Source: Acidobacteriota bacterium (lineage in GTDB: Bacteria; Acidobacteriota; Terriglobia; UBA7540). Taken from it: a DNA stretch of 64,000 bases. A program made the position numbers and the translations under genes. Below the pieces are notes generated by a model. That model worked only from the letters and a program-made list of their open reading frames with translations, searched no databases and was not told where the DNA came from. The DNA lies in assembly GCA_902812365.1 (NCBI GenBank), contig CADDZC010000001.1:1-64000 (forward strand). The letters run 5' to 3'. This document shows positions 2,626 through 48,119 of the stretch, one piece after another. The number at the start of each line of letters is the position of its first letter. Position 1 is the first letter of the stretch.

Positions 2626-4686
2626 CTAAGGCTTGAGCTTCTTGAGCGCGGCGAGAGCTTCCGGGTTGCGCGGGTCGGTCTCGAGGCCGGCCTCGTACTG
2701 AGCCCTGGCGCTGGCCGTGCGGCCTTCGGCAGCGTAAAGCGCACCGAGCGCAAAGCGGGCGTGACTGTCAAAGCGGTTGAGCTCGAGCGCATGGCGGAAG
2801 GCGTCTTCGGCCTTGGCCCGCTCGCCAAGCGCCAGCTCAATGTCCCCCAGGCCGTCGAAAGCGGCGCTGTGGGGTTCACAGCGGAGCGACGTTTCGTACT
2901 CTTCTCGCGCGAGCGCCGTCTTCTTTTCGTCCAGGTACAGTTTGGCGAGTTCACGGTGGGCCGAAGCATTCAGGGGAGAAAGGATGGTAGCGACGCGGAG
3001 CTGAAGTTCGGCGGCCGCCGGCTGGCCCAGCTCGCGGTAGGTGATCCCGAGGTTCAAGTGAGGATCGGTGTACTTGGGTTTCAGGCGCATGGCCCGCTGG
3101 TAGAGAGCGACGGCGTCGTCGTAGCGTTTCTGGTGGCTGAGCAGCAGGGCGAGATTGTTGAGGATGATCGCATTATTCGGCGCCAGCCGCACCGCCTCGC
3201 GCCACTCGCGCTCCGCCGCCGCGGCGTCTCCTTCCCGCCAATACACTGTCCCGAGATTATTGCGAATCGGATAAGCATTGGGTTCGGCCGCCAGCGTGCG
3301 CCGGTAGAGCGTGACGTCGTTTCGCCAGTCGCGATTGCGCGTCACGATGCGGACGGCGCCCAGACCCAGCAGGATGGCAAACCCTGTGCCGAACGCCGCG
3401 CGGTACCGGCGCGCCCGGAAGGCACGGGGCTGGCCGCCCGCGCGCCCGGCCCAAGCCCAGAGCCGCGCCGCTGGCCAGGCGAGGAGCCAGCAGAAACCGA
3501 CGGAGGGCAGGTAAAGATAACGCTCCGCGAACACGTTCGCCGCCATCCAGCGTGCGTTCAGGACCGGCGCCAGCGTGCCCAAAAACCAGAGGATGCCGAA
3601 CGAAGCGAGCCGGCGGCCGTCATCGAGGGTGGCGGCCTGGCCGCGCGGCCGCCCCAGAAAGAAAAACAACGTCACCAGCGCGCCCAGGATAAGAAAGCCG
3701 CGGAGAAAGCGCGCGTCCAGGGGGCTGGCGCTGAGGTGAAATCCGTAGAACGCCGACAGGTGCACGGGCCAGAGGAATTTTATAACGTATTGGCCGGCCA
3801 GGGCGACAGCGGAGAGAATCGCCTGCGGCCACGTCAAACCGGGCAATTGGGTGACCGGTGCGATGGCTCCGAGAAACCGGACTCGAAACAGCAGATCAGC
3901 GGCGGCCAGCAACCACAGTACGCCGTAGCGGGACACTTTCTGGCCGAAGGTCGTTTCCGCGCGGTCGCTTCGGTAAAAATGTTCGTAGAGCGTGGCGAGA
4001 GCCGGGAGAGTCAAAGCTTGTTCCTTGGAAAGGAGGGCCAGCACAAAGCTGGCCGTCATCGCGCTCAGCGCCCGTTCCGAGCGCCGGCCTGCGGGTCGGG
4101 CCAAGTCGAGGAAGAACCAGAACGTCAGAAGGTAAAACAGCGTCAGCTCGAGATCGGTGACGGCGGCGATCCAATCGACGGACTCCGTGTGAACGGGATG
4201 CAGCGCAAAAAGGCTCGCGGTGACGAAGGCCACGGGCGGCTGCGGGAACAGGCGGCGCGTGACGGCAAAGAGTAAGCCGACGATGGCGGCGTGGAGCAGG
4301 ACGTTAGCGAGGTGGAATCCGTAAGCCAAAGGTCCGAACAGCTGGTAGCAAATCAGGTAGCCCAGGGTCATCATCGGCCGGTAATAGTTCGTCAGCCCTT
4401 GCGCGCCCACGTAGGACCAGACCGTGGTGGTGAAGATTTCCCGCAGGTGGCCGAAGGACTGGATGAAAGGATTATTCATGACCTGGGTGTTGTCGTCGTA
4501 AACGAAAGCGTTCAACAGAGTGTTGAGATAGGGAAGCGCGGCGATCAGGGCCAGCAGCGCGATCGAGCTGGTTGCGTGGCGGGCGGGGCCGCGGTCCGGG
4601 GGTGGAAGCGGTGAAGGCGCGGTTTTCAAATGAACAGAGCTCCGATCATCTTGTCGCTCGGCGCGCGAGCAACTCGCTGTTGTCAC
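2626..4686 (-). CDS. GT-C-type membrane protein with C-terminal TPR repeats
   Basis: About 686 residues: an N-terminal polytopic region of roughly ten membrane segments, then at least six TPR units from about residue 440 to the end (for example YPIRNNLGTVYWREGDAAAAE and DPHLNLGITYRELGQPAAAE). The membrane half has the layout of TMTC/O-mannosyltransferase-like GT-C proteins: VYDDNTQVMNNP in the first loop, FALHPVHTESVDWI, and ANVFAERYLYLPSVG. GT-C enzymes take sugars from polyprenyl-phosphate donors; the acceptor here is unknown. A GTG at 4686 overlaps the PAP2 stop (GTGA) and suits translational coupling; an open frame extends much further upstream but covers the PAP2 gene. A paralogue lies at 58109-59962. 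Confidence 0.75.
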   Translation of the reverse strand: MTTASCSRAERQDDRSSVHLKTAPSPLPPPDRGPARHATSSIALLALIAALPYLNTLLNAFVYDDNTQVMNNPFIQSFGHLREIFTTTVWSYVGAQGLTNYYRPMMTLGYLICYQLFGPLAYGFHLANVLLHAAIVGLLFAVTRRLFPQPPVAFVTASLFALHPVHTESVDWIAAVTDLELTLFYLLTFWFFLDLARPAGRRSERALSAMTASFVLALLSKEQALTLPALATLYEHFYRSDRAETTFGQKVSRYGVLWLLAAADLLFRVRFLGAIAPVTQLPGLTWPQAILSAVALAGQYVIKFLWPVHLSAFYGFHLSASPLDARFLRGFLILGALVTLFFFLGRPRGQAATLDDGRRLASFGILWFLGTLAPVLNARWMAANVFAERYLYLPSVGFCWLLAWPAARLWAWAGRAGGQPRAFRARRYRAAFGTGFAILLGLGAVRIVTRNRDWRNDVTLYRRTLAAEPNAYPIRNNLGTVYWREGDAAAAEREWREAVRLAPNNAIILNNLALLLSHQKRYDDAVALYQRAMRLKPKYTDPHLNLGITYRELGQPAAAELQLRVATILSPLNASAHRELAKLYLDEKKTALAREEYETSLRCEPHSAAFDGLGDIELALGERAKAEDAFRHALELNRFDSHARFALGALYAAEGRTASARAQYEAGLETDPRNPEALAALKKLKP

Positions 4687-5687
4687 TCCGCCGGCATCGA
4701 AACTCCCAGCCGCCGGATCCATTCGACCCAGGCCGCCGGCAGCCCGATGGTGACGGGAATCTCTCCCCAGCGCCGGTAAAGCGCGTTGGCCAGAAGATAA
4801 CTGAGGGGCGCGAGGATGAAGCCGACGACGCAGTCGATCAGGTAGTGGTAGCGCAGATACACGGTGGAGAACCAGAGGCTGAGGATCAACGGCATCAGAA
4901 TCCAGAAGAGGCGCTTCGAGTTGCGCCAGGCGTAAAGCCATACGACGAACGAGATGCCGACGTGGAGGCTCGGAAATACGTCGCGGCGGACGCGCGCGAA
5001 GTCCATGAAGGCCATCTCGCGGTTGAAGACGGTCAGCGGCGTTTCCAGCCCGACCGTATATTGATTCCGCAAGGTATACATGGGGCCGACGGCGGGAACC
5101 AGGATGTAGCCGAGCAGCCCGATAAAACTGATGACGATCAGGCCCAGCATCATCTCGCGGAAACGGGCCCGCGGGCGGCGCAGGTAGATGAAGCAGGCGA
5201 CGATGGGAATATTGAAGAGGTGAAAGGCGTAGGCAAAGTCCATCCATTCGGTGAGCGGCGGACTGACGATTTTCTGCAAGAGGAGGCTGATCTGGCAGCC
5301 GAACAGCCGCTGGTCCCACGCGATCAGGGCGGCGTCGCGGTCATGCGTGACGAGCACGTGGGTGGCGCCACCCCAGAGCGAGTAGTACATCATCAGGATG
5401 ATCAGGAAGGGGAACCAGTCGCGCACGATTTCCCAGTACGGGCGGACGAACGGAAAGACATCGCCCGATTCTTCCGGCGCCTTCCGGCCGGCCAGGAAGT
5501 AGTGCACCACCTCTTTGCCGAGCAGCAGGGCCACGGCTGGGATGATGATGAGCACGTCCGCCGGGCTCAGATTCTCACCCCGCATCTCGCGGAAAAGGAG
5601 TTGCAGGAGGAGGTTCAGTCCGAAGAAAACCAGGGCGATCACGTCTTCCAGGCGCAGCGCGAGCCGAAGTTGACGGTTACTGAGCAT
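4683..5687 (-). CDS. PAP2-family membrane phosphatase
   Basis: 334 residues with about six or seven membrane helices. The acid-phosphatase motif is present as FPSLHVGISF, and a later YHYLIDCVVG supplies the second catalytic histidine and aspartate. The long N-terminal part and the GPMYTLRNQ loop resemble inositol-phosphorylceramide-synthase/AUR1-type PAP2 members, which transfer or remove phosphate from lipid-linked substrates in the membrane. It sits between two TPR membrane proteins and overlaps both (11 nt upstream, 4 nt downstream), so the three are probably one transcript. Lipid-carrier recycling or phospholipid headgroup exchange are the likely roles; which one cannot be told. Confidence 0.8.
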   Translation of the reverse strand: MLSNRQLRLALRLEDVIALVFFGLNLLLQLLFREMRGENLSPADVLIIIPAVALLLGKEVVHYFLAGRKAPEESGDVFPFVRPYWEIVRDWFPFLIILMMYYSLWGGATHVLVTHDRDAALIAWDQRLFGCQISLLLQKIVSPPLTEWMDFAYAFHLFNIPIVACFIYLRRPRARFREMMLGLIVISFIGLLGYILVPAVGPMYTLRNQYTVGLETPLTVFNREMAFMDFARVRRDVFPSLHVGISFVVWLYAWRNSKRLFWILMPLILSLWFSTVYLRYHYLIDCVVGFILAPLSYLLANALYRRWGEIPVTIGLPAAWVEWIRRLGVSMPAE

Positions 5688-46107: not shown

Positions 46108-47409
46108 TCATTCCGCCACCTGATTGAGCGTGGCGAAGAATTCAGGGAATGAAATATTGACGCAGCGGCTGCCGTGTAGGATCGAGCTGCCGTCGGCTAC
46201 GAGGCCGGCGACCGCGAACGCCATGGCGATGCGGTGGTCGCCGTAACTGTCAAGCTCCGCGCCGCGCAAGGGCTGGCGACCGGGTACGATCAAGCCGTCC
46301 TCGAGTTCCTCGACCTGTGCTCCCATGCGGCGCAGATTTTGCGCCACGGTTTTGATGCGATCGCTTTCTTTGACGCGCAACTCCGCCGCGCCGCGAAACG
46401 CGAGGCCGCGCTCCGCTTGGGTGCCGAGTACCGCCAGCACGGGCAGCTCGTCAATGAGCCGAGGGATCAGTTCAACCGGTAGATCGCCGCCTTGCAGCCG
46501 GCTCGATTGTACGTGCAAGTCACCCACCAGCTCGCCGCTGATCGTCTGCACGTTGAGGACGTTGATCTGACCGCCCATCGACGCCAGCACATCTAAAATC
46601 GCGGTCCGGGTGGGATTGAGGCCCACGTTTTGGATCACGAGGTTCGAATCGGGGACTAGCAGGCCGGCAACGATGAAGAAGGCCGCCGAAGAAATGTCGC
46701 CCGGTGTGTAAAGCGCCTTCGCCGCGGGTTGGGCGGGGCCGCGCACCGTGACCGTCCGGCGCCGGCGCTCGACGTCTACGCCCATCTGTTCGAGCGCAAT
46801 TTCGGTGTGATCGCGCGTCGCCAGCGGCTCGCGGATCTCGGTGACGCCTTCCGCAAACAGTCCTGCCAGCAGGATTGCCGACTTCACTTGGGCGCTGGCA
46901 ATCGGCATCTCATAGCAGATAGGTTTGAGCTGGCCACCCTGGATGTCCAGCGGGGGCAGGCCGCCATCCGCCGAGGAGATCCTGGCGCCCATCTGAGTGA
47001 GGGGGTCGATAATGCGCTTCATGGGCCGGCGGGAAAGGGAAGCGTCGCCGGTAAGGATGGAACGGAAGGGCTGGCCGGCGAGAATGCCCGAGAGCAGCCG
47101 CATGGTTGAGCCGGAATTTCCGGCGTCGAGCGCGGTGGGCGAAGCCCGCAAGCCTCGCGGACCAACTCCCTGAATCGTGACCCGATCCGGACGTCGTTCG
47201 ATGGGGACTCCCAGTTTTGCCAGGCAGTCGAGCGTGCTTTGGCAGTCGGCGCTCGAGGCAAAGTTATGGATCTCAGTCGTGCCTTCGGCGATGGCTCCCA
47301 GGAGGGCATAACGGTGGGAGATGGACTTGTCTCCCGGCATGCGGATGGAGCCCGCCAGACCCTTGGCCGGCCGTATGAGCTGAGTGTCGGGCAATGGCTG
47401 CTGTGCCAT
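46108..47409 (-). CDS. aroA: 3-phosphoshikimate 1-carboxyvinyltransferase
   Basis: 433 residues. EPSP synthase joins phosphoenolpyruvate to shikimate-3-phosphate in aromatic amino acid synthesis. PGDKSISHRY near the N-terminus, LDAGNSGSTMRLLSG, GDASLSRRPM, RVKESDRI and GDHRIAMAFAVAG are intact. Length and order are normal. The glyphosate-relevant loop reads NSGSTMRLL, so insensitivity cannot be judged by eye. Next upstream, on the same strand, is the candidate selenoprotein gene. Confidence 0.96.
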   Translation of the reverse strand: MAQQPLPDTQLIRPAKGLAGSIRMPGDKSISHRYALLGAIAEGTTEIHNFASSADCQSTLDCLAKLGVPIERRPDRVTIQGVGPRGLRASPTALDAGNSGSTMRLLSGILAGQPFRSILTGDASLSRRPMKRIIDPLTQMGARISSADGGLPPLDIQGGQLKPICYEMPIASAQVKSAILLAGLFAEGVTEIREPLATRDHTEIALEQMGVDVERRRRTVTVRGPAQPAAKALYTPGDISSAAFFIVAGLLVPDSNLVIQNVGLNPTRTAILDVLASMGGQINVLNVQTISGELVGDLHVQSSRLQGGDLPVELIPRLIDELPVLAVLGTQAERGLAFRGAAELRVKESDRIKTVAQNLRRMGAQVEELEDGLIVPGRQPLRGAELDSYGDHRIAMAFAVAGLVADGSSILHGSRCVNISFPEFFATLNQVAE

Positions 47410-47456: not shown

Positions 47457-48035
47457 TTACTGGGCGGGCAAAGTTGCGTCGACCGCCTTCAGCAACTCGG
47501 CGGCGGAGGGCATGTCGCCCGGATGGGTTCCGCGGTGAAGCCACAAAATCTTTCCCCCGGGCGCGACGAGCGCCGCCCCGGGAAGCTGCAGGATGTCCGT
47601 ATGCTTGCGGAAGGTACCCTCCAGGCTAACCCTACATCCGGCCGCGCTGGCTTCTTTCCGCCGCGCCCTCAAGCCGGGCGATGCGAAGATCATGTCTTTC
47701 CACAAGGCGCGACCGAAGCCCATGGCGCGATAGCTGGCCTTGTCCGGATCCGGGATGCAGGCCTGCTCGAAGCCGTACCGGCTGCAAAATTGCGCTGCCT
47801 CTGTCGCCGTCCCTTGCACAACGCACGCGACCCGCACACCTCGGCGCTCGAACTGTGCCCTCTGCTCGCGCAACTGCGCAAGTGTTTCCGCATAGAAAGG
47901 TCAGCCGAAATGGCGGAGCCAGACGACCAGCGCTGCTCCCTCCGCCCACAACTCGGCCAGGTGCCTCTCCTGGCCGCGGACGGTCAGGTAAACGAAGTCC
48001 GGCGCCGTACTGCCGATCTCAAGCGCAGGCGACAT
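47457..48035 (-). CDS. Redoxin-like (AhpC/TSA_2-type) candidate selenoprotein with in-frame TGA
   Basis: Reading through one in-frame TGA (47901-47903) gives 192 residues. The N-terminus is MSPALEIGSTAPDFVYLT, then LVVWLRHFG, the TGA as residue 45, then PFYAETLAQLREQRAQFERR and a normal thioredoxin-fold remainder (VVQGTATEAAQFCSRYG, PGAALVAPGGKILWLHRG). In AhpC/TSA_2 redoxins the peroxidatic Cys stands exactly there (RHFGCPFC), so the codon most likely specifies selenocysteine. The ATG at 48035 has GAGGG five bases upstream. A bacterial-SECIS-like hairpin follows the TGA. The C-terminal part alone begins only at a TTG inside the thioredoxin domain. A nonsense mutation or sequencing error remains possible. 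Confidence 0.75.
47865..47903 (-). promoter_or_regulatory. TGA codon and bacterial-SECIS-like hairpin
   Basis: After the TGA (47903-47901) and an 18-nt spacer lies a 7-bp stem, CTTGCGC (47882-47876) pairing with GCGCGAG (47871-47865), with one G-T pair. The loop is AGTT, so its second base is G. Bacterial SECIS elements sit within the coding region just 3' of the UGA, with a G near the start of the apical loop about 16-37 nt away; here the loop is 25 nt away. Confidence 0.6.
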
Positions 48036-48119
48036 TGAAACCCTCGCTGCTATTGTAACCCATCCGGCGCCCCAGGCAGAGCGGCGCCACCTTTGACTTT
48101 TGAGCCTGAGTACGATGGA

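Follow-up and report, generated by a model that had tools for sequence, protein, structure and literature searches.

A predicted selenocysteine codon at the active site of a SelL-related redoxin with a UxxY motif from an Acidobacteriota genome

One redoxin-like gene in the genome of an Acidobacteriota bacterium (assembly GCA_902812365.1, a soil-type organism) has a TGA codon within its reading frame, which raises the question of whether the gene is broken or the codon is read as an amino acid, and if so which. The gene lies on the minus strand of the window analysed here (the first 64,000 nt of contig CADDZC010000001.1; Table 1), and runs for 192 codons from an ATG at 48035 to a TAA at 47459-47457; the TGA, between RHFG and PFYAE, is the only stop in it. 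The original prediction, made from this stretch alone, described such a continuous frame behind a good ribosome-binding site, and both descriptions hold, with a GAGGG 5 nt before the ATG. GC3 is 0.84 upstream of the TGA and 0.77 downstream, and codon-position composition is coding-like on both sides. It was also anticipated that automatic annotation would report only the C-terminal part from a TTG, and a standard gene caller does return just that (47457-47873, 138 aa). An orthologue (L152, see below) is likewise reduced by a standard caller to a fragment (4304-4717). With the gene cut in this way, misannotation is likely both for this protein and for its close relatives. The consensus promoter scan gave no match, and no Rfam family was found in the window.

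Table 1. Positions of the redoxin gene, its predicted recoding elements and related loci (window coordinates unless a locus is named)
Feature	Position	Strand	Basis
Predicted selenoprotein gene, SelL-related / AhpC-TSA_2 redoxin, 192 codons	47457..48035	-	Pfam AhpC-TSA_2 1.3e-16; NCBIfam NF040769 122.1 bits
TGA within the frame (codon 45), predicted to encode selenocysteine as the nucleophile	47901..47903	-	Column is TGA in 48/70 and a Cys codon in 22/70 relatives
TAT codon 48 (Tyr), where CxxC/UxxC has its second Cys	47892..47894	-	Aligns with C47 of human PGFS
Predicted bSECIS hairpin CUUGCGC-AGUU-GCGCGAG, 7 bp	47865..47882	-	Loop 25 nt past UGA; -9.9 kcal/mol alone
Shine-Dalgarno-like GAGGG, 5 nt upstream of ATG	48041..48045	-	Sequence
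aroA-like gene (3-phosphoshikimate 1-carboxyvinyltransferase), 47 nt downstream	46108..47409	-	Named from translation
Acidimicrobiia UxxY loci	L131:831-1400; L136:1254-1847; L145:6239-6811; L159:2-547		

For the family searches, the TGA was replaced by a Cys codon. The predicted AhpC/TSA_2-like identity is borne out by a Pfam AhpC-TSA_2 (PF13911) match of 61.4 bits (1.3e-16; the gathering score is 27 bits), and the frame also scores as NCBIfam NF040769, SelL-related redox protein, residues 10-184 aligning with positions 2-172 of the 173 in the model. Membership of NF040769 seems to hold by a narrow margin: the score is 122.1 bits where the cut-off is 120, and falls to 113.2 in a six-frame scan, which does not translate the TGA as Cys. 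The protein shares the RH[FLY]G[U/C]xF motif of this family, and has its TGA at the same place as most aligned members from the phylum, but differs in having Tyr for the second Cys of UxxC. The classical peroxiredoxin motif PxxxTxxC/U was not found, VWLRHFGUPFY having no PxxxTxx before the Sec, and the motif here is UPFY, not the UxxU of SelL proper.

By sequence, the closest solved relative is human prostamide/prostaglandin F synthase (PGFS; PRXL2B, PDB 9us9/9usa; 1.4e-8), in which LRRFGC44VVC47 aligns with LRHFGU45PFY48, so that C44 falls at Sec45 and C47 at Tyr48; it differs in being a eukaryotic Cys protein with a CxxC motif, and is only 25-26% identical. In an AlphaFold2 model built from eight sequences (pLDDT 84.9, pTM 0.83), the Sec is placed just ahead of helix 46-57, which comes after strand 34-40. 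The predicted structure matches PGFS and many peroxiredoxins; a common fold of this kind is not proof of common function.

The TGA column was followed through the phylum with an NF040769 search of 396 genomes, which gave matches in 117; since stops are read through in this search, it is not biased toward TGA. In an alignment of 70 relatives from the phylum (71 sequences with the query), the column has TGA in 48 and a Cys codon in 22, with no other residue and neither TAA nor TAG. This is the outcome that the original prediction had proposed to look for, homologues with C or U at that position, and it agrees with its argument that a TGA landing exactly on this codon points to selenocysteine; the pattern is beyond chance. 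The prediction quoted RHFGCPFC as the family motif, with no comment on the second Cys being Tyr in this protein. At this position (+3) the 71 sequences have Cys in 63 cases, Sec in five, and Tyr (the query), Pro (L065) and Ser (L084) in one each, so that Cys or Sec occupies both CxxC positions, as is usual, in all but these last three (68 of 71). The UxxU double-Sec members, which have the SelL form, are L026, L029, L037, L078, and L091, all from the same phylum. L065 (576-1112) reads UVFP: it retains the Sec and a SECIS-like hairpin (AGGAU loop), with Pro for the second Cys.

The means to read the codon as Sec are in place. The host genome (3.5 Mb, 96.7% complete, in 123 contigs) encodes tRNA-Sec (70 bits; called by ARAGORN as SeC(tca)), SelB (330 bits), SelA (577 bits), and SelD (371 bits), the full selA-selD set for which a search had been suggested. 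The SelD gene, outside the window (L018:1501-2439, G000:C1:101463-102401), has an in-frame TGA of its own at the catalytic residue (AAGUAAKLSP), and is thus a selenoprotein as well. Of the order's 40 genomes, 37 have a SelA match, in 35 of them over the cut-off, which argues that Sec use is a lineage trait rather than the property of a stray gene. The idea that the machinery exists chiefly for a Sec-containing formate dehydrogenase was rejected: the Fdh-alpha matches in this genome were below the cut-off, and had no internal stop. Other genomes of the order yield short matches of AhpC/TSA type, each with a single TGA in frame (L093-L099, L102, and further places), which point to a Sec-rich redoxin repertoire cut short by ordinary annotation.

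The sequence following the UGA can be folded into a 7-bp hairpin with a 4-nt AGUU loop, beginning 18 nt downstream. The published bacterial SECIS model asks for a G among the first two nucleotides of the loop and a U next after it, at a spacing of 16-37 nt, with a stem of 4-16 bp and an energy of at most -7.5 kcal/mol; the hairpin here (AGUU, 7 bp, 25 nt, -9.9 kcal/mol) agrees on every point. In an unselected test against base-shuffled controls, 35 of 49 TGA genes had a G-loop stem of at least 5 bp (7.3 expected), as did 6 of 22 Cys genes (4.7 expected); in the exact register of the query, 23/49 and 1/22, respectively, had a stem of 4 bp or more. For five of the seven pairs, both sides have changed in relatives; the rows used were selected for forming at least 4 pairs, which inflates the percentage paired, but the double changes remain informative. 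The Leu codon at the loop is TTG or TTA in 28 of 40 TGA genes, compared to 122 of 746 other Leu codons (Fisher 6e-13), a bias that amino-acid conservation would not explain. The overall folding energy of the RNA after the TGA does not stand out (z -0.64), and the average energy of the hairpin does not tell TGA relatives from Cys relatives (-13.3 vs. -13.7), so that the two groups are separated only by loop identity, position, and covariation, and not by energy.

One alternative is that TGA is read as some other amino acid (e.g., Trp), through a changed genetic code or general read-through; the frame would indeed be open under any code in which TGA is sense. TGA is, however, the ordinary stop of the seven neighbouring genes checked, which argues against a code change of the whole genome, and relatives without TGA have Cys at this column rather than Trp. 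With a SECIS and the Sec machinery present as well, such a reading is very improbable.

Orthologues are scarce. At 1e-10, a search of the 39 further genomes in the order found none, nor did one of the 395 other genomes of the phylum, in which the remaining matches are relatives at 30-36% identity. Scans of genome_contigs and viral_contigs for close relatives, using the protein or a small alignment, also gave no match; their patterns used Cys codons, and so missed TGA versions. When the TGA was made part of a DNA pattern (RH[FY]G-TGA-xFY), the scan gave 61 hits in genome_contigs, of which seven are clear family members and the rest are chance matches or too short to judge. Orthologues, 58-63% identical to the query, were found in an Acidobacteria MAG (L152) and two Candidatus Acidiferrales MAGs (L116 and L126), and with the query form one clade in the tree (support 1.0). 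All three keep the TGA, Tyr48, and cysteines 71, 84, 93, and 134, as well as the 7-bp AGUU hairpin, in L152 with a compensated pair, and no further disruptions were found in these close relatives. On both sides of the TGA, pN (0.23-0.35) is far lower than pS (0.64-0.77), so that each half of the gene is under purifying selection.

These orthologues bear directly on the possibility that the gene is a pseudogene, a former Cys redoxin with a nonsense mutation at its active-site codon. The absence of an orthologue from most relatives might suggest this, as might the single base separating TGA from the Cys codons TGC and TGT, but the same TGA recurs in the three orthologues and in dozens of relatives, never as TAA or TAG. 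Together with the purifying selection on both halves, a conserved and covarying hairpin, and a whole Sec machinery in the genome, this makes a pseudogene highly improbable, and the conserved TGA in orthologues in practice refutes it. A sequencing or assembly error might likewise be suspected in a metagenome-type assembly broken into 123 contigs, but is scarcely credible when the same TGA appears in the same frame in independent assemblies from other projects (L152, L116, L126). The selenocysteine reading of the original prediction is therefore strongly supported, by the machinery, the U/C column, the SECIS, and orthologues that keep the TGA, and as judged from these comparisons, decoding of the TGA as Sec in a SelL-related redoxin is almost certain.

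The pattern scan also turned up a second set of UxxY genes, with the motif ULFY, in Acidimicrobiia or Ilumatobacter MAGs of the Actinomycetota (L131, L136, L145, L159). These make up their own clade (0.999), elsewhere in the tree from the acidobacterial one; in them, too, an AGUU loop lies equally far from the TGA, but the stem sequence is different. The separation of the two clades suggests that UxxY has arisen twice, or so it seems from a short and divergent alignment whose deep branches are uncertain.

What the protein might do can be proposed from its motif. UGA codon 45 would be read as selenocysteine via SelB, tRNA-Sec, and the downstream hairpin, to give a thioredoxin-fold SelL-related redoxin in which the Sec, taking the place of the first Cys of the family motif CxxC, would be the nucleophile. 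Sec45 would most likely reduce a peroxide or a disulfide, and we consider the peroxide/disulfide chemistry of a redoxin to be likely. Since the usual resolving Cys is Tyr48 here, the oxidised Sec would be resolved by another thiol, either one of the clade-conserved C71, C84, C93, or C134, or an outside thiol as in the 1-Cys peroxiredoxins. The protein is thus probably a single-Sec redoxin with its resolving thiol elsewhere, a function suggested by sequence comparison; for substrate and resolving partner alike, we only infer. Residues 71, 84, and 93 are not Cys in the Acidimicrobiia UxxY members, so that an internal resolving Cys, if one is used, would differ between the clades, and resolution by an outside thiol may be the simpler explanation. 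Gene context yields no substrate: no conserved operon partners were seen, the neighbours of L152, L116, and L126 differing from those in the window, and the aroA-like gene is not conserved near any of the three.

As another possibility, the gene could be a genuine Sec gene whose product, having Tyr48, acts on one particular small molecule, for instance as a PGFS-like reductase, rather than as a peroxidase or disulfide reductase of general kind. Human PGFS is the best solved relative by sequence, with C44 and C47 aligned to Sec45 and Tyr48, and Tyr48 is conserved in 4/4 clade members. The low identity, and the many peroxiredoxins that match the fold equally well, make this unlikely. A general redoxin is the preferred reading, and for it the 1-Cys peroxiredoxins (AhpE, Prx6) offer a partial parallel: they share the fold, and have one peroxidatic chalcogen with no adjacent resolving residue. 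They differ in the PxxxTxxC motif, which the query lacks; its Sec presumably stands at the Thr position of TxxC, not at that of the peroxidatic Cys.

Selenocysteine is already known in this family. A Prx-like UxxC/UxxU family appears in reviews, as does an AhpC-TSA_2 selenoprotein with UxxS (PMC9312934, PMC13188914). The latter (AhpC-TSA_2/cd02970) resembles the query in its Pfam domain, its single Sec, and the lack of Cys at the second motif position, and differs, in a comparison by description only, in having Ser rather than Tyr at +3. SelL (UxxU, with a diselenide) and the bacterial UxxU relatives mentioned above share the family and the Sec column, but have a second Sec at +3. What is uncommon is the UxxY active site, with Tyr for the usual partner cysteine. 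No UxxY entry was found among 119 families of prokaryotic selenoproteins inventoried in 2026; the search covered literature outside subscription journals, and UxxY may have been described earlier within them. A tentative proposal, which we hold to be somewhat doubtful, is that the acidobacterial and Acidimicrobiia clades have converged on UxxY as a class of single-Sec redoxin in its own right, in which the Tyr replacing the resolving Cys would be catalytic or would protect the selenium, with the resolving thiol elsewhere or in trans.

What began as a guess from a single sequence now appears to be a conserved selenoprotein with a conserved SECIS, and its UxxY active site, kept in two phyla, may offer a handle on how a Sec redoxin functions without a neighbouring resolving cysteine.
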